A stretch of 33,589 nt of DNA from a virus, in the IMG/VR virus record IMGVR_UViG_3300042914_005450, positions 1 through 33,589 of that record; one strand, 5' to 3'. A program made the position numbers and the translations under genes. The notes under the pieces were generated by a model, which was not told where the DNA came from, searched no databases, and saw only the letters and a program-made list of their open reading frames with translations. This document shows, one piece after another, positions 3,513 to 33,589 of this stretch (positions are counted from its first letter, which is position 1; each line of letters starts with the position of its first letter).

Positions 3513-3544
3513 ACAGTATATATCTCCTGTGAGCACCACTAATT

Positions 3545-3591: not shown

Positions 3592-3689
3592 AATAGGAAA
3601 ATTTCCGTTAGCAACTTTTATTCTCATCCTTACAAACTTTCCCGTGTTTCGATTACACTCGCTTTGTTGAACAATTAAAATCAAACAAA

Positions 3690-4265: not shown

Positions 4266-4287
4266 ATCAATGGAACATCTGTAATTG

Positions 4288-4314
4288 AAAAGAGGCTTAA
4301 TGCCTCTTTTTTTT
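4288..4314 (+). terminator. Rho-independent terminator
   Basis: A perfect 9-bp stem AAAAGAGGC / GCCTCTTTT with a TTAAT loop and a T run. It separates the winged-helix-like gene from the defence operon. Confidence 0.88.
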
Positions 4315-4485
4315 GTCTAAATCCCTTGAAAAACAAAGGTCTCAACCAAAAATAATTCACTAAGGCAACCAATGAGAAATTGCACCGTCTTTATTGCAGT
4401 AAAGATGAACTATACAAAATATCTACTGATTTATTTGGTGGAACCAAAATAATTTCCGAGTTTTGTAAACAGTAAAGTAAAACTG

Positions 4486-9062: not shown

Positions 9063-9131
9063 ATGAGAAGAAGACTGGTTTTTAATGAAGGGCTTATTCA
9101 GAAATTCTTAACGGGTAAAATTAGGGTATGA
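9063..9131 (+). pseudogene. hsdS 3'-end remnant (scar)
   Basis: A 22-codon frame opening with ATG and ending in FLTGKIRV plus stop. It matches the final residues of the intact HsdS (LTGKIRV preceded by a GL..Q helix end), with similar but diverged nucleotides. The LTGKIRV end is characteristic of HsdS, and no HsdS coding sequence precedes it here. It therefore looks like what is left of a second hsdS after recombination or gene insertion. Its stop overlaps the ATG of the protease gene (ATGA), just as intact hsdS overlaps its own downstream gene. Confidence 0.75.
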
Positions 9132-9943: not shown

Positions 9944-11227
9944 ATGGACATTTCTATCACTATAGACAAATCAACTTTTCAAATGCTTAGCTATCCTGAG
10001 TTATTGAGATTGAGTAGTTATTACAAACATAATATTGCTCCTGTTTTGGTAATGGAAATAATGGGAGACCTTAAAAAAGAAGTGACTGATGGAAAGACTC
10101 CAAGCGAAGAACGTGTAAAGGATTTTGCAAAAAAGTTATTCCCGGTTCACACTAGTGTTAATAGCTACTACAGAAACTTAGTGAAAGGTGAGTTAATGGG
10201 TCGTGGGGTTACATTTGATGGACGACCTCATGTTGATGTTGAAAAGATAGTTCAAGCGGAGGATGGGTCTAAAGGATTCGTTATTCAAGAGACACAAGAA
10301 GAAAAATCAATCTATAAATGGAAAGCCGGAAACTTCAGCGAAGCAGACAAAGAGCTTTCTGAACTTTGGCGAACAATAACTACTCAAGAAAATCTACTTA
10401 AGAATTTACAGAAGATACTTCAATCAAACAAAAATGGAGAAAAAATAAGAAACACTAAGGAATTAAATGATAAGGTTGAAGCCATCCTAAACGATTATGA
10501 CAAACAGGATAGTCTCTTAGTTTTTCTAATCGATAATTACGGGGAAAATGAAATTGATGGCGGAGCAATCTTTGAAAGATATTTGATTGAAGGCAGGCCA
10601 CTTCTTAAGGATTTTGCGCCTTACGCAGCACATTGTATAAAAGTTGACCTTTTATTTCATTACGGATTAATGCATGAAGTGATTGGTACAAGACCAACTA
10701 ATCGAGTTGACCTAGAATACTTATACTACTTACCATTTTGCAACATCTTTACTTCAAACGATAAACTTCATAAGTTACTTGCACCATTACTTATTAGAGA
10801 AGATCAAAAGTTTATTATTGGTCAAGAACTTAAAAATGACTTTAAAAACATTGTTGAACACCTTGAATCTGGTGGAGATGAATTGATGAAAAAGCATGCC
10901 CATGAACCCCCAATAATAGAGTCATCTTTGACCTTTCAACTATGGAAAGAGTATTTTGGTTATCCCCAAAAAAGTAATCTAAACAGAAAGATGACTGACC
11001 AAGATATGGAGTACATGAAAAAACAAATGGACAAATTCATCCGAGCTTCTAAAGGTGAAAAAGTAGAATTTGAAGAAGGCGAAGAAGAACAATTCATTGT
11101 CAAAACATCTTGGTTAAGCAAAGATGATCCTTGTTATTGCGGAAGCGGAAAAATAATAATAGAATGCTGTATGACAAACGACCAGTTTAATAAACAAAGT
11201 GAAAACCCGAATAAACCTCAATTATGA
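9944..11227 (+). CDS. SEC-C zinc-motif protein
   Basis: A 427-aa protein. The C-terminus has a SEC-C metal-binding motif, DPCYCGSGK...CC (Asp395, Cys397, Cys399, Cys408, Cys409). The last ligand is Cys rather than the common His-type ending, and the KKYKKCC consensus is changed to KIIIECC. The N-terminal 380 residues are not recognised. They include a charged helical middle (about 140-190) and a conserved-looking block, DLEYLYYLPFCNIFTSNDKLHKLLAPLLI (about 268-296), which could be a nuclease-like or PIN-like core, but I cannot confirm this. SEC-C motifs often mark protein-interaction modules. The gene starts immediately after the protease stop and overlaps the Argonaute-like gene by ATGA, so the three are probably made in fixed ratio. 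Confidence 0.7.
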   Translation: MDISITIDKSTFQMLSYPELLRLSSYYKHNIAPVLVMEIMGDLKKEVTDGKTPSEERVKDFAKKLFPVHTSVNSYYRNLVKGELMGRGVTFDGRPHVDVEKIVQAEDGSKGFVIQETQEEKSIYKWKAGNFSEADKELSELWRTITTQENLLKNLQKILQSNKNGEKIRNTKELNDKVEAILNDYDKQDSLLVFLIDNYGENEIDGGAIFERYLIEGRPLLKDFAPYAAHCIKVDLLFHYGLMHEVIGTRPTNRVDLEYLYYLPFCNIFTSNDKLHKLLAPLLIREDQKFIIGQELKNDFKNIVEHLESGGDELMKKHAHEPPIIESSLTFQLWKEYFGYPQKSNLNRKMTDQDMEYMKKQMDKFIRASKGEKVEFEEGEEEQFIVKTSWLSKDDPCYCGSGKIIIECCMTNDQFNKQSENPNKPQL

Positions 11228-13518: not shown

Positions 13519-14396
13519 AAGAAAAACATAAATACTTGAATGAGATTCAAAGTCGACCAAAACTATATGCTTTGTCATGCTTACTTTGGGGGAATCCTAT
13601 TAACACAATTCAAGAAGAACTAAACGAGATTGATGAAATTTATATTAATTGCATTCAAGCTATAAAAGCAGACTCGATTGAACTTTTCAAGAAACAGTAC
13701 GAACTTATTTCAAAAAGGAAAGTAGTTGAAAATTCATCCGCGCCTTTTGTGCATGACGATTTTTTGATTTTTGTATTGATTGTTGGGGTTGTCAAATTTG
13801 AGCAAAATATGAATTGGTTAATCAACTTGGTACATTTAAAAGTGAAGAATAAAACAACAAATACCTTTGAAAATTTACTCACAAAAAATTATCAAAGTAA
13901 GACAAATAATCAGTCTATAGTTTTAACATTTCTATTTATCATAAATAAATCTAATATTACAAATGATTTACTAAAAGATTCTTACCAAGACATAATTGAT
14001 CTAAACCAGACATTCGCAGATGAATTCTTAAAAATATGTCACTATAGAGCTTTTGATTTGATTTTTCAATATAAAATTCCAAGAGATTCTGATCAAATTG
14101 CAAGACTTATGCTTTTTGAAGATAGGTTTAAAAAAAGAATTACTGTATTCAGCTATATCTCATACCACCTTATTCTAATCGTTCTTCTCGTATTCTCATA
14201 CTGGATTTTGCAGAAATTACCTGCTGAATGGAAATCTAATATTAATGATGTAGGGATTTTAATCGGTATAGCAGGTGTTGGATTGATAGGGAACCTATTA
14301 CCGAAACTAAAGAAAAACTTTAGAGATTTGAACCTAAGTCTTTTTGGTTACAAAGGAGAAGATAATTACAAATCAAATAAGAATATCGAAGGATGA
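13506..14396 (+). CDS. Membrane protein with two C-terminal helices, putative effector
   Basis: A 296-aa protein whose ATG lies 13 nt inside the end of the Argonaute-like gene, so translation is coupled. Residues about 1-210 are soluble and helical, with a hydrophobic patch near 85-97. Two membrane helices follow at about 213-237 (FSYISYHLILIVLLVFSYWIL) and 248-268 (VGILIGIAGVGLIGNLLPKL), then a short basic tail. No family is recognised. Some inactive long-B pAgos are known to work with small membrane proteins that damage the membrane after target recognition, and this gene has the right position and topology for such a partner. That function is inference. It ends in an ATGA overlap with hsdR. 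Confidence 0.65.
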   Translation: MVFIEEKHKYLNEIQSRPKLYALSCLLWGNPINTIQEELNEIDEIYINCIQAIKADSIELFKKQYELISKRKVVENSSAPFVHDDFLIFVLIVGVVKFEQNMNWLINLVHLKVKNKTTNTFENLLTKNYQSKTNNQSIVLTFLFIINKSNITNDLLKDSYQDIIDLNQTFADEFLKICHYRAFDLIFQYKIPRDSDQIARLMLFEDRFKKRITVFSYISYHLILIVLLVFSYWILQKLPAEWKSNINDVGILIGIAGVGLIGNLLPKLKKNFRDLNLSLFGYKGEDNYKSNKNIEG

Positions 14397-18763: not shown

Positions 18764-19345
18764 ATGACGAAAAGACAAACTACAACTTCCGGCATGGACT
18801 GGAATACAATGCTCGGATTAAGCGACCGAATAAAAAGAGATGAAGAATACAGGGATTATCTTCTCATAACCATGGGATGCTACTTTGGTTTACGAATCGG
18901 CGATCTACTCTCTATAAAATGGTGTGATGTTATAAATAAAGAAGAACTCGTCATACAAGAATCCAAAACCAAAAAATCAAGAACCATTTCCTTCAATGAA
19001 AAAGTAGTCGAGGCAATCAACCTTTGTTCAAATGAACTTAGGTCGAAAAATTCACATTGGAATAGCGAATACGTTTTCGCGAATCGATGGGGCGGTCAAT
19101 TGTCGGTGTCTTATATTAATAAGCGCCTCAAAGTAATTTTCGGGAAGTACAACGTGCGTGTTCAAAATCCAAGTTCTCATACCTTGCGGAAAACATTCGG
19201 AAAACGCATATATGAAATGGATGGTCAATCTGATCGTTCACTAATATACTTGTCCGATATTTTCGGTCATAGTTCAACTGCTATAACACGATCATATATC
19301 GGAATCACACAGGATCAGATTAAAGATGTGTATTTGAGCTTATGA
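18764..19345 (+). CDS. Minimal tyrosine recombinase (catalytic domain only)
   Basis: A 193-aa site-specific recombinase that retains the full catalytic set: Arg44 (FGLRIGD), a Lys in the KTKKSR beta-hairpin near 70, His139 and Arg142 (HTLRKTF), His169 (FGHSS) and the nucleophile Tyr178 (RSYIG). Only about 30 residues precede the catalytic domain, so the usual N-terminal core-binding and arm-binding domains are missing; typical integrases have 300-400 residues. It should be able to cut and rejoin DNA, but its target specificity may come from another protein. It opens region 3 and overlaps the next small gene by ATGA. Confidence 0.85.
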   Translation: MTKRQTTTSGMDWNTMLGLSDRIKRDEEYRDYLLITMGCYFGLRIGDLLSIKWCDVINKEELVIQESKTKKSRTISFNEKVVEAINLCSNELRSKNSHWNSEYVFANRWGGQLSVSYINKRLKVIFGKYNVRVQNPSSHTLRKTFGKRIYEMDGQSDRSLIYLSDIFGHSSTAITRSYIGITQDQIKDVYLSL

Positions 19346-20899: not shown

Positions 20900-21553
20900 A
20901 TGTTTAAAGTAAAAACTGTCAAGGTCTCAGACCTTAGCATACACCCTTCTTATGCCTTAATTTATGAAGTAAACAATCGTCAAAGAGAGATCTTAAAAGA
21001 TTCTATTCTTAAGACTGGTGGCTTATTAGAGCCTATCGTAATCAATGAACTAAATGAAATTATTCATGGTGTTCAAAGGTACCTGGTTTATCAGGAATTA
21101 GGTTGGCAAGAAATACCTACGAAGCTATTTAATAAGGCCAAGAGTGAGGATGATGTTTTCTACATCATCTCATTCAACCGCCACCGGGATAAATCTATGC
21201 TAGAACGTTGGAACGAGATTGAAACTCTTAAAGCGTATTGGTTAAAAAAACAAGGTCAAAGAACTGATCTCCTTGAAGGCCAGACTGAATTTGATAAGTT
21301 AACAACACGTGCAAAGTTGTCACAGCACTGCAATATTTCAGAAGGTAATGTCTATAAGATTGAAAAGGTAGCCGAAAGCCATTTACACTATTTCAACCTA
21401 ATAAGCACAGGTGAAATGTCACTGCATGAAGCCTATTTACGAGCAACCGGAAGGTTTGTAGAAAAAACCGACAAGGATGTCAATGAACCAAATGGTGAAG
21501 TATTAGAAAAACTATACAATCACTGTTGTCCAAATTGTAACACAAAATTTTAA
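20900..21553 (+). CDS. ParB-like nuclease/CTPase-domain protein
   Basis: A 217-aa protein whose first 80 residues match the ParB/Srx fold: VSDLSIHP, then LKDSILKTGGLLEPIVIN and HGVQRYLVYQELGWQEIPTKLF (box II-like G..R at 57-60). A helical DNA-binding region follows (TRAKLSQHCNISEGNVYKIEKVA). The C-terminus has a short CC..C cysteine cluster (CCPNC) that could bind zinc. No ParA partner is present. It is 11 nt upstream of a C5 DNA methyltransferase, a pairing seen for ParB-domain proteins in mobile elements. Roles in element maintenance or in directing the methylase are both possible. Confidence 0.75.
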   Translation: MFKVKTVKVSDLSIHPSYALIYEVNNRQREILKDSILKTGGLLEPIVINELNEIIHGVQRYLVYQELGWQEIPTKLFNKAKSEDDVFYIISFNRHRDKSMLERWNEIETLKAYWLKKQGQRTDLLEGQTEFDKLTTRAKLSQHCNISEGNVYKIEKVAESHLHYFNLISTGEMSLHEAYLRATGRFVEKTDKDVNEPNGEVLEKLYNHCCPNCNTKF

Positions 21554-21564
21554 AACCTATAACT

Positions 21565-22587
21565 ATGAAAAATGTAGAAAAATTTGAAGCCTCAAAGTTT
21601 AACAAGGTGATTCCAATTGTAAAAGAAATTGCCATAACATTAATATCCCTATTCGCAGGATGCGGTGGTTCTAGTCTTGGATACGAAATGGCTGGTTTTT
21701 TAGAACTGCTGGCCATTGAATGGGATGCACACGCTAGAAAAGTGTTTGCACTCAACTTCCCTAACGTCAAGTTAGAAAACCTTGATATAGAAAAGTTAAC
21801 AGGCGAACAGCTCCTTGAACTAATTGACAAAGAACGTGGTGAACTCGATTTCTTTGACGCTTCACCTCCTTGTCAAGGATTTTCGCAATCTGACACGAAA
21901 CGTGATGCAGATAACGAGAAAAATAAACTCTACTTCAAGACCATTGAGTTAATCAATGATGTACAACCAAAAGTATTCTGCATAGAAAATGTGGTTGGGA
22001 TGCGCAGAGGTAAAATGAAAGTAGCCTGGAACAATATCGTTGATGCGTTTGAAAAACTTGATTATCGAGTAGAGTTCAAAGAAGTTAAAGCTGAGGAATA
22101 CGGTGTCCCACAGGCAAGAAGGCGAGTTATTGTTCTTGGAGTTAGAAATGATATTCAAAAGATGTTCAACATTGGTGATCTGTTTCCTCAGACAAGATTA
22201 ACTAATGTTGCTGAAATGTCAGTCGGAGCTCACGTTCCTAATATTATCGGTTTTTCCCCTGGTCAATTTCAAGATAGGTTTATTCCAGTTACACAACCAA
22301 TGTGCACCATTACCAAAACTATGTCTGCATGGTTTTATGAAAAAGATGGTATGAGAAGGCGACCAACAATATCTGAATTGAAGGTATTGTCCTCATTTCC
22401 AAAATCATTCGAGTTTATTGGTTCCGACAATCAACAATGGGCGCGTATAGGCAATGCTGTGCCACCAAATATTACTAGAACTATAGGTGAGCATGTAAAA
22501 CAAAATATACTGACCCAAGAGGTGTTAAATTACTTCCATCCTACTGTCAATATTGACTCAATTGAAGATATGCGTATTGCGGCTTAA
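21565..22587 (+). CDS. C5 cytosine DNA methyltransferase
   Basis: A 340-aa methyltransferase with all main motifs: motif I SLFAGCGGSSLGYEMAG (29-44), motif IV PPCQGFSQ with catalytic Cys103, motif VI ENV (141-143), motif VIII QARRRV, and motifs IX/X RRPTISELKVLSSFP...ARIGNAVPP. It methylates cytosine C5 in a sequence that cannot be read from the protein. The target-recognition segment between VIII and IX is short. The first 25 residues before motif I are an unusual Lys-rich lead. No cognate restriction endonuclease is recognised nearby, so it is probably an orphan methylase that protects the element or regulates genes. Confidence 0.92.
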   Translation: MKNVEKFEASKFNKVIPIVKEIAITLISLFAGCGGSSLGYEMAGFLELLAIEWDAHARKVFALNFPNVKLENLDIEKLTGEQLLELIDKERGELDFFDASPPCQGFSQSDTKRDADNEKNKLYFKTIELINDVQPKVFCIENVVGMRRGKMKVAWNNIVDAFEKLDYRVEFKEVKAEEYGVPQARRRVIVLGVRNDIQKMFNIGDLFPQTRLTNVAEMSVGAHVPNIIGFSPGQFQDRFIPVTQPMCTITKTMSAWFYEKDGMRRRPTISELKVLSSFPKSFEFIGSDNQQWARIGNAVPPNITRTIGEHVKQNILTQEVLNYFHPTVNIDSIEDMRIAA

Positions 22588-22646: not shown

Positions 22647-22898
22647 ATGAGCAATAACGAAATAGACACATTCGATCAGCAATTTGAAAATATATCACAT
22701 AGGGCTGTAAAAGGTTTTCAGGATGACATACTTGATTTATTGGTTACTGATTCAAATTTCTTTGGCAACAGTCCAACTGAACTATTGTTAATTGAAGATG
22801 GTACTGAGCTATTTGAATACATCATCAATGATGAATATTGGTTACGTCATTGGAGTATCTACCTCATAAGACAAATCATGAGTTTAGTTTATGAATAG
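22647..22898 (+). CDS. Small acidic hypothetical protein
   Basis: An 83-aa acidic, helical protein about 60 nt after the methylase gene. No family recognised. It has many Asp/Glu and aromatic residues (FDQQFENISHRAVKGFQDDILDLL, YWLRHWSIYLIRQI). Small acidic proteins in mobile elements can be DNA mimics, but there is no specific evidence for that here. A hairpin follows about 40 nt after its stop. Confidence 0.5.
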   Translation: MSNNEIDTFDQQFENISHRAVKGFQDDILDLLVTDSNFFGNSPTELLLIEDGTELFEYIINDEYWLRHWSIYLIRQIMSLVYE

Positions 22899-22938
22899 TC
22901 ATGCGAAACATCTATCATCCATCTAATATAATTAATAA

Positions 22939-22968
22939 GAAACCTGTTAGAAGTCCCTGACAGGTTTC
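22939..22968. terminator. Hairpin, possible weak terminator
   Basis: A 12-bp stem GAAACCTGTTAG / CTGACAGGTTTC (one G-T pair) with a 6-nt loop lies after the 83-aa gene. The following CTTCT is a poor T tract, so termination efficiency is uncertain. Confidence 0.5.
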
Positions 22969-23041
22969 CTTCTAAATGGTTAAGAAATTTAGATTTTGAG
23001 AGAGGGATAGTATATAAGTATGATGTTCATTGTTTTGCGCC

Positions 23042-24481
23042 ATGGGAGGTAAACATAAAAGAAAATATAATGTAAATCCTTTAACAGGTGTGCTGCCAAT
23101 AGGACTTGACAGTGTGGAGGATTTAGTCCACGGTACAAGTTTATGTCCTGATAGGATTAAAGTATTACTTCATCAGATATACACTTGCTGGATTTTTGAT
23201 GAGTTGAACGAGAAGAAACGTGACCGACATTTTCACAAAGAAGGATGGGTCAATCTTTCTTCAATTCGATTGAGTTCGCTCCTAACAGCAAATTATAGTT
23301 CTTATGAAAAGTTCCTAGAAGATAATAAGATAATCGAAATAAAAAGAACCCATACTGGAACGAAAAGCTATGTCAGCGGTGTGAGATGCACTCCATACAG
23401 GATTAATCCCACCTTACTAGTTCCAACTAACAAAAGAAGATTCAAACATGAAAGAATTCATGATTATAAAACTTTAAAAGCAATACAGTTAGATAAAAAA
23501 AACTTTCAGCAAGATCTGTATTCTGATGACATCACATCTATCATTCCGTTCTGCACGATCCATAAAAAAATGGAAAGCATGCTTTCTAATTTTTACTTCG
23601 ATGTAGACGGGTTAAGTGAATTTGTTTCCAAGGTCGCTACAGGTCAAATCAAATTGAAACGTAAGACAACAAGAGGTGTGCTTGATGCTGAAATGATTGC
23701 GTACCTGATTAATGATCATAGTGCTCCTAAACCAATTGTATGTGCTTTTGGAGAACGCTTTCATACTTCGTTTACAAGATTGCCAAGAGAGTACCGCGCC
23801 TTCTTGCGATTACAAGATGTGAATGAACAATTATGCTCAGTAGATATTTCTAATTGTCAGCCGTTTCTAGTTTCTTTGATTATTAGTCATCCTCAAATTG
23901 TAAAACGAATTCTCCCGGAATTCACTACCGTTTTGGATAAGATTGAACGCCTTCATCTGTTAACAGCCTTTCATTTCGATGAACTTTGCACAGATGGTGG
24001 GATCTATGGGTTTTGGTTGGAAAACAGACATGACTTGAGCAACCGTGACGAAGCGAAGGATGAATTCATTAAGCGAATACTGTTTGATTCGGATAACTAT
24101 AAAAAGAAGAAGTTCGAATTTGCAAAACTCAGATTCAAAAGTTTGTTTCCAGATGTGGCAGAGGCTATTTCAATTATGAAGAATGTGGATGAAAAAGAAC
24201 TCCCGCTTATTAAGGATTTGTATCTGGACAAAAGCGGAAAATTTGGTGGTAAGAAATATTATCACAAAACCATAAGCGCAATGTGTCAAAGGTTAGAGTC
24301 CAGAATTCTTACAGGTCTTATTGTACCTGCCCTTATTAAAAATGATTTAGGTCCCTTTCTCACTATACATGATTCGGTACTTATTCCTGAATCCAAATCA
24401 GAGCATGCAAAAAAGATCTTTGAAGATTGCTTCATTCGGTTAGGTGTTAAACCTCCACATGTCAAAATTGACACTTATTGA
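23042..24481 (+). CDS. Divergent single-subunit polymerase-like protein (PolA/T7-type palm)
   Basis: A 479-aa protein from ATG 23042; a TTG four codons earlier is possible. The C-terminal half carries what look like the three motifs of Pol I/T7-type polymerases in order: motif A VDISNCQ (Asp268), motif B RDEAKDEFIKRILF (Arg335, Lys339, Phe342), and motif C TIHDS (His443-Asp444-Ser445). A Q-containing helix (Gln416) precedes motif C. Compare the general patterns DxSxxE/Q, RxxxKxxFxxxYG and HDE/HDS. There is no 3'-5' exonuclease domain, and the N-terminal 200 residues are unassigned and basic. It could copy element DNA or RNA, or be a primase-like enzyme. The assignment rests on short motifs and needs structural comparison. 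It stands alone between two inverted-repeat regions. Confidence 0.5.
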   Translation: MGGKHKRKYNVNPLTGVLPIGLDSVEDLVHGTSLCPDRIKVLLHQIYTCWIFDELNEKKRDRHFHKEGWVNLSSIRLSSLLTANYSSYEKFLEDNKIIEIKRTHTGTKSYVSGVRCTPYRINPTLLVPTNKRRFKHERIHDYKTLKAIQLDKKNFQQDLYSDDITSIIPFCTIHKKMESMLSNFYFDVDGLSEFVSKVATGQIKLKRKTTRGVLDAEMIAYLINDHSAPKPIVCAFGERFHTSFTRLPREYRAFLRLQDVNEQLCSVDISNCQPFLVSLIISHPQIVKRILPEFTTVLDKIERLHLLTAFHFDELCTDGGIYGFWLENRHDLSNRDEAKDEFIKRILFDSDNYKKKKFEFAKLRFKSLFPDVAEAISIMKNVDEKELPLIKDLYLDKSGKFGGKKYYHKTISAMCQRLESRILTGLIVPALIKNDLGPFLTIHDSVLIPESKSEHAKKIFEDCFIRLGVKPPHVKIDTY

Positions 24482-24663: not shown

Positions 24664-24942
24664 ATGAAAGAAGGATTTGATGAAGCGCTTCAGCTTCAAT
24701 TAAAAGCACTCACGGATAGATTAAAATCGCTAGAATCTAAGATTGGGTTTTCACAAGAACTTGAATCTATAAATGATTGGATTGACGAAGAATCAGCGAA
24801 AAGAATTACGGGGCTTGGAAAGTCAACATTATATGCTCTTCGCAAAAGCGGCAAGTTGACCTTTTCGAGATTGAATAAACGTAAACTATTCTATCGAATC
24901 AGTGATTTATCAAGACTTCTGGACGAAAACGAGAAAGCATAA
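24664..24942 (+). CDS. Helix-turn-helix excisionase-like protein
   Basis: A 92-aa protein with an N-terminal coiled helix (about 5-30) and a MerR/Xis-like winged HTH (WIDEESAKRITGLGKSTLYALRKSGKLTFSRLNKRKLFYRISDLSRLLDE, about 40-88). In Bacteroidota elements such proteins sit just upstream of the integrase and act as excision factors or regulators. Here the integrase ATG follows 10 nt after the stop, so the two are co-expressed. Confidence 0.75.
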   Translation: MKEGFDEALQLQLKALTDRLKSLESKIGFSQELESINDWIDEESAKRITGLGKSTLYALRKSGKLTFSRLNKRKLFYRISDLSRLLDENEKA

Positions 24943-24952
24943 AAATAAAGAA

Positions 24953-26185
24953 ATGGAATATATTGATAAACAACCTTATTCATTAAAAGTAATCGGTATC
25001 CCAGTTGGTGAAACTGAAGTATCAATTTATATTAGACTAATTCTGAACCGTCAGAAAACAGAATTTGCTATTGGTGTAAAAGGTATTTTGGCCGAATGGA
25101 TTGGACCTGATAGTAGGTTTGATAATTCAAGAGGATACAATAATTACCTTAACAACAATATTAAGGACGCTATTGGAAAAGTTTATCAGTCTTATGTTAA
25201 AATAAGAAATGGTGGAGTGAAGCCAACCGCATTGAAAATCAAGTCTGTTTTTAAAGGAGAAGAGTCGTTCATTAAATCACCATTACTGATTAAATGCTTG
25301 GAGGATCACATAAAGACAATGGAACAATTACCTGATACTTATGCTATTGGAACAATTGCTCACTACCACACCTTAAAGAAATATCTTGTTGAGTTCTTAG
25401 CACAGAATGACATTACTAAAATGCGAATAGATGAATGGAGGCGTAAGCATTTTGTTCAATTCGAGCAATTCATGCTGACCAAACCTAATGAACTTTTGAA
25501 ACGCCCTATTGGTCGAGCAACATCCAACAAATACATTTCGAAATTGAAGGTGGTTTTTAATAGTGCGCTTGCTAATGAAATAATAGTTTTAGATCCTACA
25601 AAAGGATTCAAAATGGAACGAGTTTCAGGATCAAGGGAATACTTGACTGCTGATCAAGTTCAACTTATAGAATCGCATGACCTAGGTGGTAATGAATCAC
25701 TTAATAGAGTTAGATGGATCTTTTTATTCTCTGTGTACTCAGGTTTAAGATTCTCAGATGCTATGAGTTTGAAACGATCCGACATTATCGAAGAATCCGA
25801 TGGTAATTTCTACATTGATGTTATTCAAAAGAAGACTCAACAACCGCTTTACAGACCACTTCTTGGCAAAGCTATAAACATCTATCAAAAGTTTAAACAT
25901 GACGACCCAGAATCATCCTATGTGCTCCCAAGAATATCCAACCAAAAGACAAATGCTTATTTGAAAGTAATAGCAGATCTCTGTGGGATTAAGAAAACAC
26001 TATCTCATCATATCGCCAGACATACCTTTGCTACTACTGTCCTATTGGACTCTGGAATTGATCTAAAAGCAACATGTTTCTTTATGGGACATTCTTCCGT
26101 TAGAACGACAGAAGTGTATGCAAAGATTACTAAGAATAGAGCTGTGGATGTTGTTAATCAACTAAATTTAGTTCACAGTCAATGA
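24953..26185 (+). CDS. Tyrosine-type site-specific integrase
   Basis: A 410-aa integrase of normal length. The ATG at 24953 is chosen; the frame is open back to 24902, within the HTH gene. An N-terminal arm-binding region and a SAM-like core-binding domain (about 105-225) precede the catalytic domain, with Arg266 (SGLRFSD), a beta-hairpin Lys (QKKTQQPL), His353 and Arg356 (HHIARHTF), His380 (MGHSS) and nucleophile Tyr389 (EVYAK). All catalytic residues are present. It integrates or excises the element of region 3, together with the HTH protein. It ends five nt from the convergent protease gene. Confidence 0.92.
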   Translation: MEYIDKQPYSLKVIGIPVGETEVSIYIRLILNRQKTEFAIGVKGILAEWIGPDSRFDNSRGYNNYLNNNIKDAIGKVYQSYVKIRNGGVKPTALKIKSVFKGEESFIKSPLLIKCLEDHIKTMEQLPDTYAIGTIAHYHTLKKYLVEFLAQNDITKMRIDEWRRKHFVQFEQFMLTKPNELLKRPIGRATSNKYISKLKVVFNSALANEIIVLDPTKGFKMERVSGSREYLTADQVQLIESHDLGGNESLNRVRWIFLFSVYSGLRFSDAMSLKRSDIIEESDGNFYIDVIQKKTQQPLYRPLLGKAINIYQKFKHDDPESSYVLPRISNQKTNAYLKVIADLCGIKKTLSHHIARHTFATTVLLDSGIDLKATCFFMGHSSVRTTEVYAKITKNRAVDVVNQLNLVHSQ

Positions 26186-26190
26186 AAGAT

Positions 26191-26982
26191 TTATCCCATT
26201 TCATTTATCATTGCTATAACTACATCAATTTTTGTTGCAAGAATTGCTTTATAGCCAGGATTAGTTTCTTTTTGTATGACAACGCCAATCAAATGTTTTT
26301 CGGTTGTTCCGAAAAAATTCCAGAACCCACTTCCACTCATCCCTGTAATGTCGGGAGATAAATGTGGATGTGGGTTAATTGCATTTGTGACTTCACCGTC
26401 AAATTTAAAAGCTAAAGTGGTTTCTTCTGTAAATCCAAGTCTTTGAAAATTGTAATCAAAAATAGGCTCTGTTTGATAAGAATATCCTATGGATTTAATT
26501 TCATCTTTTAACCATTTTTTTTCAGTTCTTGTCAAAGGGAATCCTACTGAGAAGTACGCCGAAGTATCTTGTAAATGATGATTTTCTCCTATTTCACTAA
26601 TTTGAATTGGACGAAAATTTTCCAATAATTTATCTCTGCTATATTCATCTACTTTCAAGATTGAAATATCTATTTTATCATCATCTCTATTTCCCGAAGT
26701 TGGCATTGGAGATGAATGAATTCTTCCACCTATTGTAAGCTCTACATCTTGAAGTAATACGAAAGTATCATTATAATGTTCGGCTAAAACATGTGCAGCC
26801 GTCACCACATAATAGTTTTCGTGAATCTTCAAGAATAACCCACTGCCAACTGGTTTAATTTGTTCGTTTTCATCATTGCAGAAAAAACAAATAGTCGATT
26901 GAAATGAGGTGTTTAGACGAGGATAAAAAATCCTGCTTTTTAGTTGATTGACCTTTCTGAGAATTTCAATGTCTTTAGCCAT
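26191..26982 (-). CDS. Trypsin-like serine protease, second copy of family
   Basis: A 263-aa cytoplasmic-type protease with the triad His64 (TAAHVL), Asp105 (DDKIDISILKV) and Ser216 (GMSG), preceded by GSGLFLKI. It has no signal peptide. Motif sequence, spacing and length match the protease at 9128-9943, so the two are homologues, though overall sequence has diverged. It is a lone minus-strand gene convergent with the integrase, typical of cargo at an element edge. No Argonaute, SEC-C or HsdS gene is adjacent, so this family can occur without them. Confidence 0.8.
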   Translation of the reverse strand: MAKDIEILRKVNQLKSRIFYPRLNTSFQSTICFFCNDENEQIKPVGSGLFLKIHENYYVVTAAHVLAEHYNDTFVLLQDVELTIGGRIHSSPMPTSGNRDDDKIDISILKVDEYSRDKLLENFRPIQISEIGENHHLQDTSAYFSVGFPLTRTEKKWLKDEIKSIGYSYQTEPIFDYNFQRLGFTEETTLAFKFDGEVTNAINPHPHLSPDITGMSGSGFWNFFGTTEKHLIGVVIQKETNPGYKAILATKIDVVIAMINEMG

Positions 26983-27195: not shown

Positions 27196-27232
27196 AAAAC
27201 CCTTGAAAACGCTTAGTTTTCAAGGGTTTTTT
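27196..27232. terminator. Strong rho-independent terminator
   Basis: A perfect 15-bp stem AAAACCCTTGAAAAC / GTTTTCAAGGGTTTT with a GCTTA loop and T run on the plus strand. No plus-strand gene directly precedes it, which suggests that its original gene was removed or lies in the junction region. Confidence 0.88.
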
Positions 27233-27276
27233 GTTTCTAGTAAGTTTCATTTAAAATCAAAAAATTACATAATATA

Positions 27277-27424
27277 GGTAACCTAATCGGTTACCAAAAA
27301 AAAAGATTGTAATTTTGGGTAACCGAGACATAGCTCAAGAAGCTGAATTTTAGATAATTACAGCGTTTGTATTTGAAAAAGTTTTGATATCGAAAACAAA
27401 AACAGGTAACCGATAGCGGTTACC
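27277..27424. repeat. GGTAACC site array upstream of integrase
   Basis: Five GGTAACC/GGTTACC heptamers occur in 148 bp. One pair is inverted at 27277-27295 (5-nt spacer). A single copy lies at 27318-27324. A second inverted pair, GGTAACCG-ATAG-CGGTTACC, is at 27405-27424. The last ends 31 nt before the integrase ATG. Candidates are integrase arm-binding sites, an attachment site or an operator. Confidence 0.65.
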
Positions 27425-27455: not shown

Positions 27456-28691
27456 ATGAATCAAAATTATGCCCTCCTGTTCTGGTTGAACAGAAGCAAA
27501 GCAAGAAACGGTAAAGCACCCATTTACTGTAGAATTACCATTGACGGTAAGCGAACAGAAATTTCCATGCGTCAAAGCGTTGATCCTGTCAAGTGGATTA
27601 CCCAAGCAGGACAAGCAAAACCCCACACCACCGAATTGCGGATGCTCAACAATTATTTAGAAATGGTAAAATCCAAGGTGTACAAACATTTCATGGAACT
27701 CAACGCCAAAGATATGTTTATTACTGGCGAAATGCTAAAGAACCTATTGTTCAGTGTTGACGAAAAACAACACTCTATCATTTCCACCTTTGATTATCAC
27801 AATCAAAAAATGAAAGAACGCATAGGAATTGACGTAGTGCCATCTACCTACATTAAATTCAATACCGTTTTAAGCAAATTGAAATTATACCTGAAAGCAA
27901 ACCACAAACGCAGCGATATGTTTCTCACCGAATTAAACCATCGCTTTGTAGTTGATTTTGAACATTACTTACGCGTAAAAGAACAAATCGCTCACAATAC
28001 AGCAATGAAATACATTACCATGCTTAAAAAGGTGGTAAACATGGCTGTTAACAACGATTGGTTAGACAAAAATCCTTTTGTGGCATTCAAATGCACCAAG
28101 CACAACGTACACCGAGAAATACTTGACGAAGCAGAAATCATCCGTTTACATGAAAAAGAATTTGATCATGAACGCTTAGAAGAAGTGCGGGACATCTTTC
28201 TATTTTGCTGTTATACCGGATACGCATTTGCAGATGTTGAAAAACTCAAACGCACCGATTTGGCAATAGGAATTGATGGAGATACCTGGATCTTTGCCAA
28301 GAGAAAGAAAACAAACACGGTTTCCAACGTGCCTCTCTTACCCCAAGCGGAAGAAATCATTCAGAAATACAGCAACCACCCACATTGTGTTAGAACCGGA
28401 GTACTTTTACCGGTAAAATCAAACCAAAAAATGAACGCCTATTTAAAGGAGATTGCTACGTTATGCGGAATTAAGAAAGAACTGACCATGCACATCGCTC
28501 GACATACATTTGCAACGACCGTTACCCTATCCAACGGTGTGCCTATTGAAACCGTTTCTAAAATGCTCGGCCATACCAAATTAGCAACGACACAGATTTA
28601 CGCAAGAGTTTTGGAGCATAAGGTTAGTGAGGACATGCAAAAACTGAAAGAAAAATTTTCAATAAAAATTCAGAAAAAAGACGTGATTTAA
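27456..28691 (+). CDS. Tyrosine-type integrase lacking the first catalytic Arg
   Basis: A 411-aa Bacteroidota integrase with an N-terminal arm-binding domain (about 1-90, LFWLNRSKARNGKAPIYCRITIDGKR), a core-binding domain (about 105-210) and a catalytic domain. His346, Arg349 (HIARHTF), His373 (LGHTK) and nucleophile Tyr382 (QIYARV) are present. At the first catalytic Arg, however, the sequence is CYTGYAFADV, with Ala257 where Arg is expected. The CTnDOT integrase is a known active enzyme with the same kind of substitution. It probably moves the element of region 4 and may bind the GGTAACC array just upstream. Confidence 0.9.
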   Translation: MNQNYALLFWLNRSKARNGKAPIYCRITIDGKRTEISMRQSVDPVKWITQAGQAKPHTTELRMLNNYLEMVKSKVYKHFMELNAKDMFITGEMLKNLLFSVDEKQHSIISTFDYHNQKMKERIGIDVVPSTYIKFNTVLSKLKLYLKANHKRSDMFLTELNHRFVVDFEHYLRVKEQIAHNTAMKYITMLKKVVNMAVNNDWLDKNPFVAFKCTKHNVHREILDEAEIIRLHEKEFDHERLEEVRDIFLFCCYTGYAFADVEKLKRTDLAIGIDGDTWIFAKRKKTNTVSNVPLLPQAEEIIQKYSNHPHCVRTGVLLPVKSNQKMNAYLKEIATLCGIKKELTMHIARHTFATTVTLSNGVPIETVSKMLGHTKLATTQIYARVLEHKVSEDMQKLKEKFSIKIQKKDVI

Positions 28692-28739
28692 TCAGCTAAT
28701 TTTCAGTCGTAGAAACTTCAAAACTTAAAATTTTGAGGT

Positions 28740-29543
28740 ATGAGTACGTACAAAGGGATGTTCACAGCGTACAATTCAGAAATATCAGAGTTGTACAAGA
28801 AGCGAACTGATAACAAGGAAAGAGCTGATAATATCGTTGAACTAAGCGACGTGCTTCTCGGAAAATTGAGAGCGACTTTTGAAAAAGAAGGCTTTACCGA
28901 CAAGCAAGAAGAAATTCAATTTTTCAAGGAAATAAAACCTAAGATTGTGGCTCATCGCATCGCAAACAGCATGTTGCTTGACTTATATTTCAAGCAGCGT
29001 TTGGGCGAAGAAGAACTTGAAAAAAACAAGTTGGAAAAGCTAATCCAACTTAGAACGTACTTTGCGGAATACCAAGAATTTTACAAGTACATCAGTTCAG
29101 GAAATCACTGCCGTGACGACCAATACTTCACGCTGGTTTCAACGAAGAACGACATCATTACTAAAATTCTTCCGGATATTGACCGTAATTTTTCAACCGG
29201 TTACGATATGTTGTTGGCCAATATGTATGCTTATGACATCATGCGTGAAAAAGCCGAAAGTTTGGATGAAAAAGAGTACAAACCCGTTCCGCAATTAACG
29301 TGGTCCTTGTCTAAATACGACTTAGTTGAATTAATTCTGGCACTTCATTCTTATAAAGCATTTAATAATGGAAAAACCGATTTGAAAGATGTTGCCTCAG
29401 CATTGGGGCAAATCTTCAATATGAACTTAAATGACATCAATAGAGCTTCTTTTTCTATAAAAAACCGAAAAAAAGAAAATACCAAGTTTTTGTATGAATT
29501 AGCAGGGAATCTCAATCGAATTATTTCAGATTCAAATAGATAG
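28740..29543 (+). CDS. rteC: RteC-family protein
   Basis: A 267-aa helical protein. Its C-terminal half (PQLTWSLSKYDLVELILALHSYKAFNNGKTDLKDVASALGQIFNMNLNDINRASFSIKNRKKENTKFLYELAGNLNRII) matches the RteC family of Bacteroidota conjugative transposons. In CTnDOT, RteC activates excision genes. Here it lies 48 nt after the integrase and 300 nt before the HTH/replication genes, a sensible place for a regulator of the element. Confidence 0.85.
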   Translation: MSTYKGMFTAYNSEISELYKKRTDNKERADNIVELSDVLLGKLRATFEKEGFTDKQEEIQFFKEIKPKIVAHRIANSMLLDLYFKQRLGEEELEKNKLEKLIQLRTYFAEYQEFYKYISSGNHCRDDQYFTLVSTKNDIITKILPDIDRNFSTGYDMLLANMYAYDIMREKAESLDEKEYKPVPQLTWSLSKYDLVELILALHSYKAFNNGKTDLKDVASALGQIFNMNLNDINRASFSIKNRKKENTKFLYELAGNLNRIISDSNR

Positions 29544-29856
29544 CAATTAAAATCACGGAAATTGTATGTTTTTTAAGGTAGCTTTCCTATTAAAAACCTG
29601 AAATTTCAAGTAGTTATACGTGTCATTTTCCGAATAACTACGCAAGCCATCTCTGTTTTTAGGTTGATTTAATTCGGTGATTTTTTCACTGATGAACGAA
29701 TTGTTACTTTTTGAAACCTTGAAAAACATTGTAAACAAAGACTTTTCAATCAAATCACTTTAAATGAATGAATTATTTCTACCAACTGCGGTAATGTTGG
29801 ATAATTATTGATTGGACGACCTAGAAATTTGCCACTCGATATCAAAACTTTTAAAA
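29544..29856. other. Intergenic region before HTH/replication genes
   Basis: 313 nt, AT-rich. A 66-codon minus-strand frame (29553-29753) exists but has no supporting context. TTG 29812 opens the HTH frame early, without family support. No clear operator palindrome was seen. As the gap between RteC and the HTH/rep operon, it probably holds that operon's promoter. Confidence 0.4.
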
Positions 29857-30174
29857 ATGCAAATTTCAGTAGTAACTAAAGAAGACCTGGAGGTATTCAA
29901 AAATGACCTTTTAGGCGAAATGGAAAAAATCCTCAAGAGCCATAAACTCAAATCAGAGCAAACTGCATTTGGGAATTTTCCAAAGGATAGAAAATGGATG
30001 AAATCCACCGAAGCACGAAAGATGCTAAACATCTCTCAGGGTACATTCCACAAACTTAAAATCAATGGCATTATCCCCTACAGCCGAATTGGTAAAGTGT
30101 GTTTGTACGACTACGATGAATTAGTAAAAATTATCCAAGCAAATAAAATCCACAATGGCATCTTTCGATTATGA
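29857..30174 (+). CDS. Helix-turn-helix element protein
   Basis: A 105-aa protein from ATG 29857 (MQISVVTKEDLEVFKNDLL). That opening is the usual one for this Bacteroidota family, so I prefer it to the TTG at 29812. A coiled N-terminal helix is followed by a Xis/MerR-like winged HTH (KWMKSTEARKMLNISQGTFHKLKINGIIPYSRIGKVCLYDYDELVKII). Likely an excision or replication regulator. Its stop overlaps the start of the replication initiator gene by ATGA. Confidence 0.75.
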   Translation: MQISVVTKEDLEVFKNDLLGEMEKILKSHKLKSEQTAFGNFPKDRKWMKSTEARKMLNISQGTFHKLKINGIIPYSRIGKVCLYDYDELVKIIQANKIHNGIFRL

Positions 30175-30851
30175 ATTACATCGCTCACTTGACGGCTGTC
30201 ATGGAACGCATCACCAAGGACGATCGGCTCAATCCAAGTCACGTCAGTTTGTATTTAGCACTTTTTCAATTCTGGAACATGAATCGTTTTAACAATCCCA
30301 TTTCCATTCATCGGGAAGACACCATGCGTTTGTCCAAAATAGGTTCTAAGAACACCTATCACAAGTGCATTACTGACTTGAGCAATTGGGGATTCATCAA
30401 GTATTGCCCTTCTCACAATCCCATGAAAGGAAGTACCGTGAAGATGTACAATTTCGGTACAAGTAGTGGGACAACTACTGGGACAAGTAGTGGGACAACC
30501 TCTGAACAAGTACCGGTACAAGCACTGGTACCTTCTATAAACAATACAAACAATAATAAACTATCTAAACAGAATAAACAAGGAGAGCGTAAAACGAATT
30601 TTACGCCACCATCACTGGAAGATGTTTTAGAATTTTTTAAAATTCAAAAGTTTGAATTGGAAGAAGCTGAACCTTTTTTCTTGTACTATCAGGCAAATGG
30701 TTGGCTTGTCGGTAAAACCAAAATGAAAAACTGGCAAGCGGCCGCAAAAAATTGGATCCTCAGAAGCAAAAAGTTCCAATCTGAAAAAGCGGGCAAACTC
30801 GCTCCTCATCAATTACACGCTAAACACACCAATTATGAAGAAACCTTATAA
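30171..30851 (+). CDS. Putative replication initiator with embedded repeats
   Basis: A 226-aa protein. The N-terminal 90 residues look like a winged-helix initiator domain (LNPSHVSLYLALFQFWNMNRFNNPISIHREDTMRLSKIGSKNTYHKCITDLSNWGFIKY). A low-complexity Gly/Thr/Ser linker (about 95-115) is encoded by 12-bp repeats. The C-terminal domain, VLEFF...FFLYYQANGWLVGKTKMKNWQAAAKNWI, is typical of replication proteins in Bacteroidota elements and phages. The gene overlaps both the HTH gene and the downstream ATPase gene, giving an initiator/helicase-loader pair like phage lambda O/P. Confidence 0.65.
   Translation: MNYIAHLTAVMERITKDDRLNPSHVSLYLALFQFWNMNRFNNPISIHREDTMRLSKIGSKNTYHKCITDLSNWGFIKYCPSHNPMKGSTVKMYNFGTSSGTTTGTSSGTTSEQVPVQALVPSINNTNNNKLSKQNKQGERKTNFTPPSLEDVLEFFKIQKFELEEAEPFFLYYQANGWLVGKTKMKNWQAAAKNWILRSKKFQSEKAGKLAPHQLHAKHTNYEETL
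30456..30532. repeat. 12-bp iteron-like repeats, candidate origin
   Basis: Four direct 12-bp units (GGTACAAGTAGT, GGGACAACTACT, GGGACAAGTAGT, GGGACAACCTCT) lie at 30456-30503. Degenerate units GAACAAGTACC and GGTACAAGCACT continue to 30532. An AT-rich stretch (about 30533-30583) follows at once. Iterons plus an unwinding region inside the initiator gene match the lambda O/ori layout. Confidence 0.55.
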
Positions 30852-31485
30852 CCCGTCGACGGATAAGCCTTTTTTCATAGACGAGGAAGGCGCTCGTAAT
30901 TACAATTTTGGAAATACAATTCAATTTTTACAGCACAAAGGCAAACAAAGATTTGGTCAAAACTTCAAAATTCAAAAAGAAGATTTGCCAATCATTTCAA
31001 AGCTTTTAGTCTATTTCACAAAATGCGATGATTTATGCAAGGAAAAAGGCATTGATCCAAAGAAGGGCATTTTACTCGCTGGTCCTATCGGCTGCGGTAA
31101 AACCTCACTCATGACCCTGATGACAGAATTCACCTTTGAAATCAACCACTTTTTCATTCGTTCCTCACGAGCCATTGCAGCTGAGTTCCACGAAGAAGGT
31201 TATCAAGTTATTCAGAAATATTCCTGGTCACCAAAGATTTATTGCTTCGATGATTTAGGCGTGGAACAAAACACGAAGTACTACGGGAACGAATGCAACA
31301 CTATTGCTGAAATCCTCCTGAATCGCTACGATTTGATGATAAGGCAAGGATATGTCACACACGCCACCACCAACCTCAGCGCATCCGATTTGGAAGCACT
31401 TTATGGCAATCGCTTACGCTCCCGAATGCGTGAAATGTTTAACCTCATCGCTTTTCCAAACAACACACCAGACAAACGAAAATGA
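30835..31485 (+). CDS. DnaC/IstB-type AAA+ ATPase, putative helicase loader
   Basis: A 216-aa ATPase with Walker A GPIGCGKT (83-90), Walker B YCFDDLG (Asp139, Asp140) and a sensor/arginine region TTNLSASDLEALYGNRLRSRMREMF. There is no transposase next to it, so a replication role (loading the replicative helicase at an origin) is more likely than IS21-type IstB transposition. It overlaps the initiator gene by 17 nt. Confidence 0.82.
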   Translation: MKKPYNPSTDKPFFIDEEGARNYNFGNTIQFLQHKGKQRFGQNFKIQKEDLPIISKLLVYFTKCDDLCKEKGIDPKKGILLAGPIGCGKTSLMTLMTEFTFEINHFFIRSSRAIAAEFHEEGYQVIQKYSWSPKIYCFDDLGVEQNTKYYGNECNTIAEILLNRYDLMIRQGYVTHATTNLSASDLEALYGNRLRSRMREMFNLIAFPNNTPDKRK

Positions 31486-31527
31486 ACGTATTTCTACGCA
31501 AATCCAATAGTACTTATACTATATTTC

Positions 31528-31543
31528 TTAGTACATGTACTAA
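31528..31543. promoter_or_regulatory. 16-bp perfect palindrome
   Basis: TTAGTACATGTACTAA lies between the ATPase gene and the amidase gene. A related inverted pair, TAGTA-CTTA-TACTA, sits just upstream (31509-31522). It is a candidate operator for the amidase gene 143 nt downstream. Confidence 0.45.
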
Positions 31544-31685
31544 ATTTTTTCCCTTAAAGAGAATTTCAAAAGCGATAATTCATAACAAATTAAAGGCAAG
31601 GGCACCTGTGAGCTTCAAACTTATTCAGAGATAGCTCCTAAGGGTAAATCCTCACTCACTAATCAATAATTAAATTTAGAAAATC

Positions 31686-32312
31686 ATGATTAATCTTATT
31701 CAATCTCCACTTAACAAAGCACAGTATTATCCCGAAGCACACACGAAGAAACAGATCGTGTTGCACCATACCGTCAGTGGCCCAAGAGCAACTAGCGTTA
31801 TCAACAGTTGGGGCTATACCCCTGTCCGAGTTGCAACAGCTTTTGTCATCGATGGCGAAGGAACCATTTACCAATGTTTCAGTTCCGCCCATTGGGCACA
31901 TCACTTGGGCACTCATAACCCAAACAACACCCAATTAAACCAACAATCCGTAGGAATAGAAATATGCAATTGGGGAGCTTTGGTTGAAAAAGGCGGTAAA
32001 TTTTACTCCACCTTCAACATTGAAGTTCCAAAAGAAGAAGTCATTGATTACGGCATGCAATGGCGCGGACATCGTTATTTCCAAAAATACAAAGACGAGC
32101 AATTGGAATCCTTAAAAATCCTACTCGAATACCTGTGTGAAAGATACAAAATTCCCAACACTTACCAACCCGATATGTGGAAGCTAAACTCCCAAGCCCT
32201 CAATGGAACACCAGGAATCTGGACTCACGTCTCTTTCCGAGCTGATAAATCCGACTGCCACCCCCAATTAAGTTTGATTAATTTGTTGAAGTCTTTGAGT
32301 GAGGTAAGGTGA
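31686..32312 (+). CDS. N-acetylmuramoyl-L-alanine amidase (Amidase_2 type)
   Basis: A 208-aa peptidoglycan amidase: zinc-ligand motif LHHT (His27-His28), core SVGIEICNWG, and the C-terminal ligand region THVSFRADKSDCHP (His181, Asp190, Cys191, His192). It cleaves the bond between N-acetylmuramic acid and the stem peptide. No signal peptide or holin is seen, so delivery to the wall is unexplained. In a mobile element such an enzyme may aid DNA transfer through the wall or be a phage-derived lysin. It is a separate unit, with about 200 nt of upstream DNA. Confidence 0.85.
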   Translation: MINLIQSPLNKAQYYPEAHTKKQIVLHHTVSGPRATSVINSWGYTPVRVATAFVIDGEGTIYQCFSSAHWAHHLGTHNPNNTQLNQQSVGIEICNWGALVEKGGKFYSTFNIEVPKEEVIDYGMQWRGHRYFQKYKDEQLESLKILLEYLCERYKIPNTYQPDMWKLNSQALNGTPGIWTHVSFRADKSDCHPQLSLINLLKSLSEVR

Positions 32313-32350
32313 AGTCAATTTGTTATATTCTTTCTTAAAATGCGTTTAAA

Positions 32351-32370
32351 AGTAAACAAATTTGTTTACT
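32351..32370. promoter_or_regulatory. 20-bp perfect palindromic operator
   Basis: AGTAAACAAATTTGTTTACT is a perfect palindrome ending 39 nt before the ATG of the XRE antitoxin gene. This is the expected place and form of a HigA-type autoregulatory operator. The half-site AGTAAAC/GTTTACT also builds the palindrome at 3558-3578, in the opposite arrangement. Confidence 0.7.
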
Positions 32371-32409
32371 ATAAAACTAAATGCTAACTTTGAAAAAAAG
32401 CCAAGGAAT

Positions 32410-32934
32410 ATGTTGCCAGAAATTTCAAAAATAAAAGGAATTCATCCCGGAGCAATTTTAAGAAGAGAACTGAAAAATCGAGGAATGAAAAGTAATGAAT
32501 TAGCCGAATTGGTTAATGAATACAAACAGACCATTAGTGCCATTCTCAATGAAAGAAGAAGTATTAATCCTGGACTTTCAATCAAATTGGCAGAGCAATT
32601 AGACGTTGCTGAGGATTACTTCATGCACTTGCAAGCCAGTTACGATGTAAAAAGAGAATTGGAACAACATCATTCTGAAAAAAGATCCCCAAATCTTAAG
32701 AAGATTCGCAAGATACTTTTTTGGGACACAGATTTCGATCAATTAGATTGGGAGAGACAAAAATCAGCAATTATCAAGCGAGTATTCGAACGAGGAAATG
32801 ACATCGAGATTAGAGAGATTATTTCTTTTTATGGCCCGTCAACGGTTAATAAAACAATTCACTTGGCTAAGAATGATTTCCTTCCGACCTTCAATCAAAA
32901 TGTAAGAAAGTACCTAACTAAAGACAACGTATAA
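32410..32934 (+). CDS. HigA-like XRE antitoxin with DUF6922-type C-terminus
   Basis: A 174-aa protein from ATG 32410. The open frame reaches a TTG at 32362, but that lies inside the operator palindrome, so the ATG is preferred. Residues about 8-75 form a HigA-type XRE HTH (IHPGAILRRELKNRGMKSNELAELVNEYKQTISAILNERRSINPGLSIKLAEQL). Residues about 98-143 (IRKILFWDTDFDQLDWERQKSAIIKRVFERGNDIEIREIISFYG) look like the DUF6922 unit that usually accompanies AbiEii-type toxins. It probably neutralises the next gene's product and represses the operon through the palindrome. The toxin start lies two nt after its stop. Confidence 0.8.
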   Translation: MLPEISKIKGIHPGAILRRELKNRGMKSNELAELVNEYKQTISAILNERRSINPGLSIKLAEQLDVAEDYFMHLQASYDVKRELEQHHSEKRSPNLKKIRKILFWDTDFDQLDWERQKSAIIKRVFERGNDIEIREIISFYGPSTVNKTIHLAKNDFLPTFNQNVRKYLTKDNV

Positions 32935-32935
32935 A

Positions 32936-33589
32936 TTGAATATACTTTATAGAAATACCGTTTCAGACACCCTTTGGGAATCATTGAAAAAACTAATGGA
33001 ATTAGAAGAATTAAATTCTTTCCGTTTGGTTGGCGGCACTTCCCTGAGCTTGCAAATAGGACACAGAATGTCAGTCGACATTGATTTATTTACTGATGCA
33101 GTATATGATTCCATCGATTTCAATCGAATTGATGAGATAATTTCCTCAACTTTTCAACTAGTTGATATGGGGTATGGAGGGAATAATTCAATGGGCAAAT
33201 CATACTATGTAGGAACATCAAAAGACGATTTAGTTAAATTGGATATTTTCTATACGGACCCATTTATTTACCCGGAAATAACAATGGAAGGTGTTCGTTT
33301 TGCGGGTTTAGAAGAAATCGCAGCAATGAAATTAGAAGTGATTGGTAACGGAGGAAGAAAAAAAGACTTTTGGGACCTACATGAATTATTGGAACATTAT
33401 TCACTTGCTCAAATGATTACATTTTATGAAAAACGATATCCTTATAGTTTTTCAAAAGAAGAAATAATAGCAAGACTTACATTTTTTGAAAATGCAAACG
33501 AAGATTTTGACCCCATTTGCCTTCGCAAGAAATACTGGGAATTAATAAAATTGGATTTTGAAGAAAGAGTTAAAAAAGAATTTAATTAG
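32936..33589 (+). CDS. AbiEii-type nucleotidyltransferase toxin
   Basis: A 217-aa protein of the AbiEii/AbiGii nucleotidyltransferase family: LVGGTSLSLQIGHRMSVDIDLFTD with the GG-S and D-x-D pair (Asp48, Asp50), third acidic residue Asp103 (LDIF), and RKKDFWDLHELLEHY near 141-155. The start is TTG at 32936, because no ATG occurs before the conserved region and the spacing to the antitoxin stop (one base) fits an operon. Such toxins add nucleotides to tRNA or other targets and cause growth arrest, including abortive phage defence. Complete in the window. Confidence 0.88.
   Translation: MNILYRNTVSDTLWESLKKLMELEELNSFRLVGGTSLSLQIGHRMSVDIDLFTDAVYDSIDFNRIDEIISSTFQLVDMGYGGNNSMGKSYYVGTSKDDLVKLDIFYTDPFIYPEITMEGVRFAGLEEIAAMKLEVIGNGGRKKDFWDLHELLEHYSLAQMITFYEKRYPYSFSKEEIIARLTFFENANEDFDPICLRKKYWELIKLDFEERVKKEFN

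Follow-up and report, generated by a model that had tools for sequence, protein, structure and literature searches.

A predicted divergent polymerase of the TV-Pol family encoded beside a tyrosine integrase

The locus

The window is the whole stretch of DNA analyzed here, 33,589 nucleotides that make up positions 1 to 33,589 of the IMG/VR virus record IMGVR_UViG_3300042914_005450. At 23042-24481 on its plus strand lies an open reading frame that runs from an ATG at 23042 to a stop ending at 24481 and encodes 479 residues, with a TTG at 23030 as a possible alternative in-frame start. We assign the product to the transposon-virus polymerase (TV-Pol) family (Iyer, Abhiman and Aravind, 2008; PMC2579912), and the surrounding features are as follows.

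18764-19345, plus strand: short tyrosine recombinase of 193 residues (family match; homologues in TV-Pol loci L102, L109 and L119)
20900-21553, plus strand: ParB-N-like protein (E 7e-4, below Pfam's cut-off)
21565-22587, plus strand: C5 cytosine DNA methylase (family match; homologues in TV-Pol loci L102, L109, L112 and L053)
22647-22898, plus strand: 83-residue open reading frame between methylase and polymerase, no match
22932-22975, no strand assigned: imperfect inverted repeat upstream of the polymerase gene, possibly a terminator or regulatory site
24664-24942, plus strand: HTH_17 protein, by its family match a likely excisionase or regulator
24902-26185, plus strand: tyrosine integrase with SAM-like and weak arm domains (family match; its relatives adjoin other TV-Pols)

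The linkage to an integrase, an HTH factor and a C5 methylase, which a preliminary description of this DNA had drawn from the letters alone, thus holds. No helicase or SSB-like partner was recognized among the neighbors scanned (the C5 methylase, the 83-residue frame, the HTH_17 protein and the integrase; small frames were judged by sequence only). Near the polymerase gene no convincing iterons, tandem repeats or att repeats were found, and a promoter scan gave chance-level results.

Elsewhere in the window, a class II pAgo gene (11224-13518; PADLOC E 2.7e-262) and its Aga_Unknown partner (13506-14396; E 3.5e-92) are preceded, within the region 9128-14396, by a 271-residue frame that looks trypsin-like by eye and has no family match and by a 427-residue frame without matches. 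A type I restriction cluster (hsdM-like at 5960, hsdS-like at 7482, hsdR at 14393) surrounds these genes. Directly after the integrase, on the minus strand, is a trypsin-like peptidase gene (26191-26982; PADLOC LmuA, E 2.7e-13, with RT-protease models weaker). Three strong hairpins lie in 27196-27424, between both integrase genes, with a 15-bp stem at 27196-27230 and GGTAACC stems at 27277-27295 and 27405-27424, and these may mark an element junction or integrase sites. What follows (27456-33589) is an apparent second integrative element with an integrase, RteC, an HTH protein, an AAA ATPase, an amidase-like frame, another HTH protein and an AbiEii-like nucleotidyltransferase. No virion genes were recognized in the record, whose content resembles a genomic island more than a virus. 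The presence of type I restriction, pAgo and AbiEii-like genes in the same window would suit a polymerase-derived protein that serves defense or element competition and not replication. We consider this very improbable, in that members of the family occur on many contigs of large phages and close to integrases, not mainly in defense contexts, and PADLOC gives no match for the polymerase protein.

Relatives and conserved motifs

Searches with the single sequence returned no relatives from IMG/VR, GTDB contigs or plasmids. Distant homologues were detected by tblastn in metagenomic phages of 595-735 kb (22-27% identity), and the alignment built from them (A1) seeded a profile search of IMG/VR that yielded 80 loci. 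A search with a larger alignment yielded 40 loci in genomes, mostly of Bacteroidota, the others being Ignavibacteriota, Chlorobiota, Planctomycetota, Verrucomicrobiota and one MAG labelled Rhizobium. The 68-sequence alignment used below draws on both phage and bacterial-genome relatives. By profile search, the family is present in 20 of 296 genomes (about 7%) of the phylum of a Hymenobacter genome (G012, Bacteroidota), some of the 20 matches being weak or partial. In the tree, the window protein groups with the viral sequences of L006 and L053 (support 98/75) on long branches, and the deep nodes are poorly resolved. In one Hymenobacter genome (G007, locus L094) the TV-Pol matches number four, spread over four contigs, and one has an in-frame stop. 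Genes of TV-Pol type also occur on two Polaromonas plasmids and a 35-kb Hymenobacter plasmid (L164, L165 and L127); the Polaromonas plasmids are of 11.2 kb, with the gene annotated as a Clp N-terminal protein, and of 7.2 kb, with the gene adjoining repA. These plasmid-borne genes are possible tractable test systems.

The features of the polymerase gene, all on the plus strand, are given with their counts in the alignment.

23042-24481: TV-Pol-type A-family polymerase gene, 479 residues (reading frame, alignment, AF2, Foldseek, VIA-align)
23042-23521: N-terminal domain, residues 1-160, probable winged helix (AF2 pLDDT 78.8; weak structural matches)
23507-24478: thumb-palm-fingers core, residues 156-479 (VIA-align Z 15-17 against A-family polymerases)
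23756-23758: R239, putative beta-hairpin arginine (68/68; positional match to the conserved Arg of PMC2579912)
23843-23860: motif A, D268-I-S-N-C-Q273, with the putative catalytic Asp and Gln at the position of Pol I E710 (D268 and Q273 68/68)
24044-24085: fingers O helix, R335xxxK339...F348 (R or K at 335 in 66/68; K339 67/68)
24287-24301: Q416xxE419-S420, Pol I Q849 region (Q 63/68, E 68/68)
24362-24376: motif C, T441-I-H443-D444-S445 (D444 68/68, H443 67/68)

The motifs of the preliminary description correspond to residues 267-273 (VDISNCQ), 335-348 (RDEAKDEFIKRILF) and 441-445 (TIHDS), so that its numbering of Asp268 and Asp444 is correct. Six residues are invariant in the 68 sequences (R239, D268, Q273, Y322, E419 and D444), and nearly so are K339, H443 and N271 (67/68 each) and also K380, P370 and Q416. 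Judged by this conservation, the motifs exceed chance, which confirms their reading as motifs A, B and C of a Pol I/T7-type polymerase.

Neither Pfam, NCBIfam nor PADLOC models match the 479-residue protein, and the Pfam model DNA_pol_A (PF00476) is absent among the matches of all 68 family members, while the same model detects Pol I in 17 of 19 host genomes. No exonuclease domain is found among the listed matches, and about 155 residues precede the polymerase core. The predicted polymerase is, as had been supposed, minimal and divergent and has no recognized exonuclease. PHROGs gave one weak match, to phrog_4756 (function unknown; E 0.0041), over about 60 C-terminal residues, and the best match to it within the family reaches 3e-7.

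Predicted fold and active site

Sequence searches of the PDB gave chance-level matches only, and a fold comparison was therefore needed. The AlphaFold2 (AF2) model, made with the family alignment, has a pLDDT of 84.9 and a pTM of 0.67. Foldseek against the PDB returned A-family polymerases among the matches listed (best E 9.3e-5) with low whole-protein TM-scores (0.26-0.43) and large rmsd, and we base the conclusion on the fold instead on VIA-align over residues 156-479. Over approximately this span Pol theta scores Z 17.0 (277 residues, 3.7 Å), T7 DNA polymerase Z 16.6 and Bst Pol I Z 16.3. The match to a polymerase fold on which the preliminary description had staked its proposal is thus seen with both programs.

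In the model D268 ends the strand 263-269, H443-D444 occupy the turn joining strands 440-442 and 445-449, and the helix 335-348 carries RxxxK. This predicted placement of D268 and H443-D444 is as expected for palm motifs A and C, and from the fold match the two aspartates would lie close together; R239, by its position in the sequence, would belong to a beta-hairpin. We take the Pol I equivalents, by motif spacing, to be R668 for R239, D705 for D268, R754 for R335, K758 for K339, Q849 for Q416, H881 for H443 and D882 for D444. As far as the alignment tells, the catalytic residue set of an A-family polymerase is intact.

Two positions of the predicted active site bear on the choice of sugar. 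At motif A +5, all 68 family members have Gln (Q273), where Pol I (E710) and CcPol (E174) have the Glu that discriminates against ribonucleotides (PMC7581432). The Polaromonas and Microcystis phage proteins have His there. Directly after the motif C Asp, 64 of the 68 sequences have Ser. An HDS motif C is also found in T7 RNA polymerase. With these residues the polymerase might use either ribo- or deoxynucleotides, and the natural Gln at the steric gate offers a clean test of sugar selection.

These same features bear on whether the protein could be a single-subunit RNA polymerase of the T7/mitochondrial kind, which would transcribe the genes of the element from its own promoter or make RNA primers. 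The HDS of motif C, the lack of Glu at the steric-gate position, a VIA-align score of 14.8 for yeast mitochondrial RNA polymerase and a weak match of one relative to the RNA_pol model PF00940 (E 0.0011; none for the window protein) are in its favor. However, the fold searches rank DNA polymerases above it, the gate residue is Gln and not the Gly of T7 RNA polymerase, and 479 residues are far below the size of that enzyme, so that we hold this reading to be improbable.

The N-terminal domain, modelled alone as residues 1-160, has an AF2 pLDDT of 78.8. Foldseek found nothing significant for it (E 0.15 or worse). With VIA-align, the best rows include plasmid replication initiator domains (Z 7.0, 6.8, 6.5 and 6.2) and ORC2 winged helices (Z 5.0-6.1), which point the same way but are all within the background of unmatched models, and in the RepA_N-type comparison the initiator-type chain matches have an rmsd of about 6 Å. 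The model suggests that the domain is probably a winged helix, and it might bind an origin. Such binding is part of a reading in which a single protein would be initiator, primase and polymerase at once, an origin-binding winged helix joined to an A-family polymerase that primes on its own, without an SSB partner or dedicated helicase. Its relaxed sugar choice would follow from the replacement of the ribonucleotide-rejecting Glu by an invariant Gln. We regard this as unlikely.

Assignment to the TV-Pol family

TV-Pols were described as having a thumb, a beta-hairpin Arg, a palm with two Asp and HTH fingers with RxxxK, without a nuclease; they reside in mobile elements and viruses, and subsets are linked to integrases/resolvases or to D5 helicases (PMC2579912). 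With hhalign, the profile of the 68 sequences aligns to four TV-Pol-type proteins with a score of 45.5 (P 3.8e-5; the highest of 60 column shuffles reaches 17.2) and to host Pol I with 24.1 (shuffle maximum 23.1). The reference comprises four sequences only, from two Polaromonas plasmids, a Calothrix plasmid and a Microcystis phage (MAP_030). MAP_030 is taken as the Microcystis phage TV-Pol by its motifs and the adjoining transposase gene, as the main text of PMC2579912 names no gene, and similarity to MAP_030 led to the plasmid proteins. A search of Microcystis phage LMM01 with the A3 profile gave no match, although the profile-profile comparison links MAP_030. No matches were obtained with a three-sequence TV-Pol profile in 295 genomes of the class of G009, a result that is not informative.

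From the sequence comparisons and the model, we conclude that the 479-residue protein is a divergent A-family polymerase of the TV-Pol family, predicted to be catalytically intact. The preliminary description had thought it possibly new, but this architecture in mobile elements has been known since 2008 (PMC2579912), and the protein does not represent a novel type of polymerase. The TV-Pol clade to which it belongs is real and poorly covered by databases: it is widespread, in about 7% of the sampled Bacteroidota genomes and in many large phages, and invisible to Pfam and NCBIfam.

Proposed role in the element

The setting of the relatives was compared for 16 stronger matches in 13 genomes; since four share one genome, the matches cannot count as fully separate observations. 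Of the 16, 7 have a Phage_int_SAM_5 integrase no farther than 8 kb away (0.28 expected; binomial P 5e-9), 9 have one no farther than 16 kb away (0.54 expected), and no D5_N (D5 helicase) match was found near any of them. Among 137 near neighbors of relatives on genome contigs, Phage_integrase is the commonest family (16), ahead of other integrase domains and HTH_17. Locus L102 has, consecutively, an integrase, an HTH-like protein, a short recombinase, a ParB-like protein, a C5 methylase and a TV-Pol. Because L102 thereby repeats the order ParB-like protein, methylase, polymerase seen in the window, the C5 methylase is probably part of the polymerase-carrying element.

We propose, with a probability of roughly 0.65, that the protein is a TV-Pol-kind polymerase of a Bacteroidota-type integrative element, a primase-polymerase that replicates the excised element with recruitment by its N-terminal domain and with host helpers. 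Priming is inferred from the prediction that TV-Pols are primase-polymerases (PMC2579912) and from the priming by CcPol-MP (PMC7581432). In the proposed mechanism the integrase would excise the element, the N-terminal winged helix would recruit the polymerase to element DNA, and the polymerase core would synthesize a primer de novo and then extend it, while the host would supply helicase, SSB and the bulk of synthesis. The HTH_17 protein may regulate excision, and the C5 methylase may protect or mark the element.

For CcPol, which is Pol I-like and as of 2020 was the only TV-Pol characterized biochemically, primase activity has been demonstrated in vitro: priming of DNA with dNTPs requires its SSB-like partner MP (CcPol-MP), and without MP the enzyme carries out primer extension only (PMC7581432). 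By analogy this would speak against a primase role here, in that no such partner was recognized. Thus a serious rival is a primer-dependent polymerase for repair or gap filling, which would only extend existing 3' ends and would not prime; it might act, for example, where integration leaves gaps or during conjugative second-strand synthesis. The behavior of CcPol without MP fits it, as does the finding of neither an SSB nor a helicase partner. On the other hand, several large-phage loci pair a TV-Pol with a Pol A, where a second extender would be redundant and priming fits better, and the displacement of primase-polymerases by TV-Pols also argues for priming (PMC2579912). We judge the primer-dependent alternative to be doubtful.

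In these pairs (viral-contig loci L004, L007, L013, L014, L018 and L023) a distinct Pol A gene, lacking an exonuclease, comes after the TV-Pol gene, an arrangement that points to different functions for the two products. The Pol A gene encodes about 430-460 residues, and in the L004 pair (2923-5369) its start overlaps the stop of the gene before it. The two-polymerase pair merits a study of its own.

Comparison with known systems

The window protein resembles the TV-Pols of the 2008 description in its predicted minimal thumb-palm-fingers core without exonuclease, with the beta-hairpin Arg, the two Asp and the RxxxK fingers motif, and in its mobile-element and virus setting with lambda-type integrases. 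The Bacteroidetes, Planctomycetes, Verrucomicrobia and Proteobacteria reported there recur here (PMC2579912). In contrast to one TV-Pol subset, no D5 helicase was found near the 16 matches above, and in contrast to the subset with a predicted all-helical N-terminal domain, the window protein probably has a winged helix (PMC2579912). It differs from the Polaromonas and Microcystis phage proteins by Gln in place of His at motif A +5.

With cellular DNA polymerase I (PF00476) it shares the predicted fold and, by position, the catalytic residues, whereas the exonuclease domains are absent, E710 is replaced by Gln and E883 by Ser, and there is no Pfam match. Aeromonas and Rheinheimera phage proteins, annotated as uncharacterized or as DNA polymerase, are structurally similar at 12-14% sequence identity, and from their length our guess is that they are members of PHROG 4756.

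Like the CcPol-MP and PolA-SSB primases of SCC elements, it joins an A-family polymerase domain to a site-specific recombinase element, and a role in element replication is proposed for both (PMC7581432, PMC10061031). CcPol is near Pol I, has the steric-gate Glu, keeps part of the exonuclease domain, requires MP for priming and is encoded in a helicase operon, and none of these features was recognized for the window protein. This clade, with its Gln gate, its probable winged helix and the apparent absence of partners, is a useful test case within TV-Pol, and as it has no recognized SSB or helicase partner it allows a direct test of whether a bare TV-Pol starts DNA.
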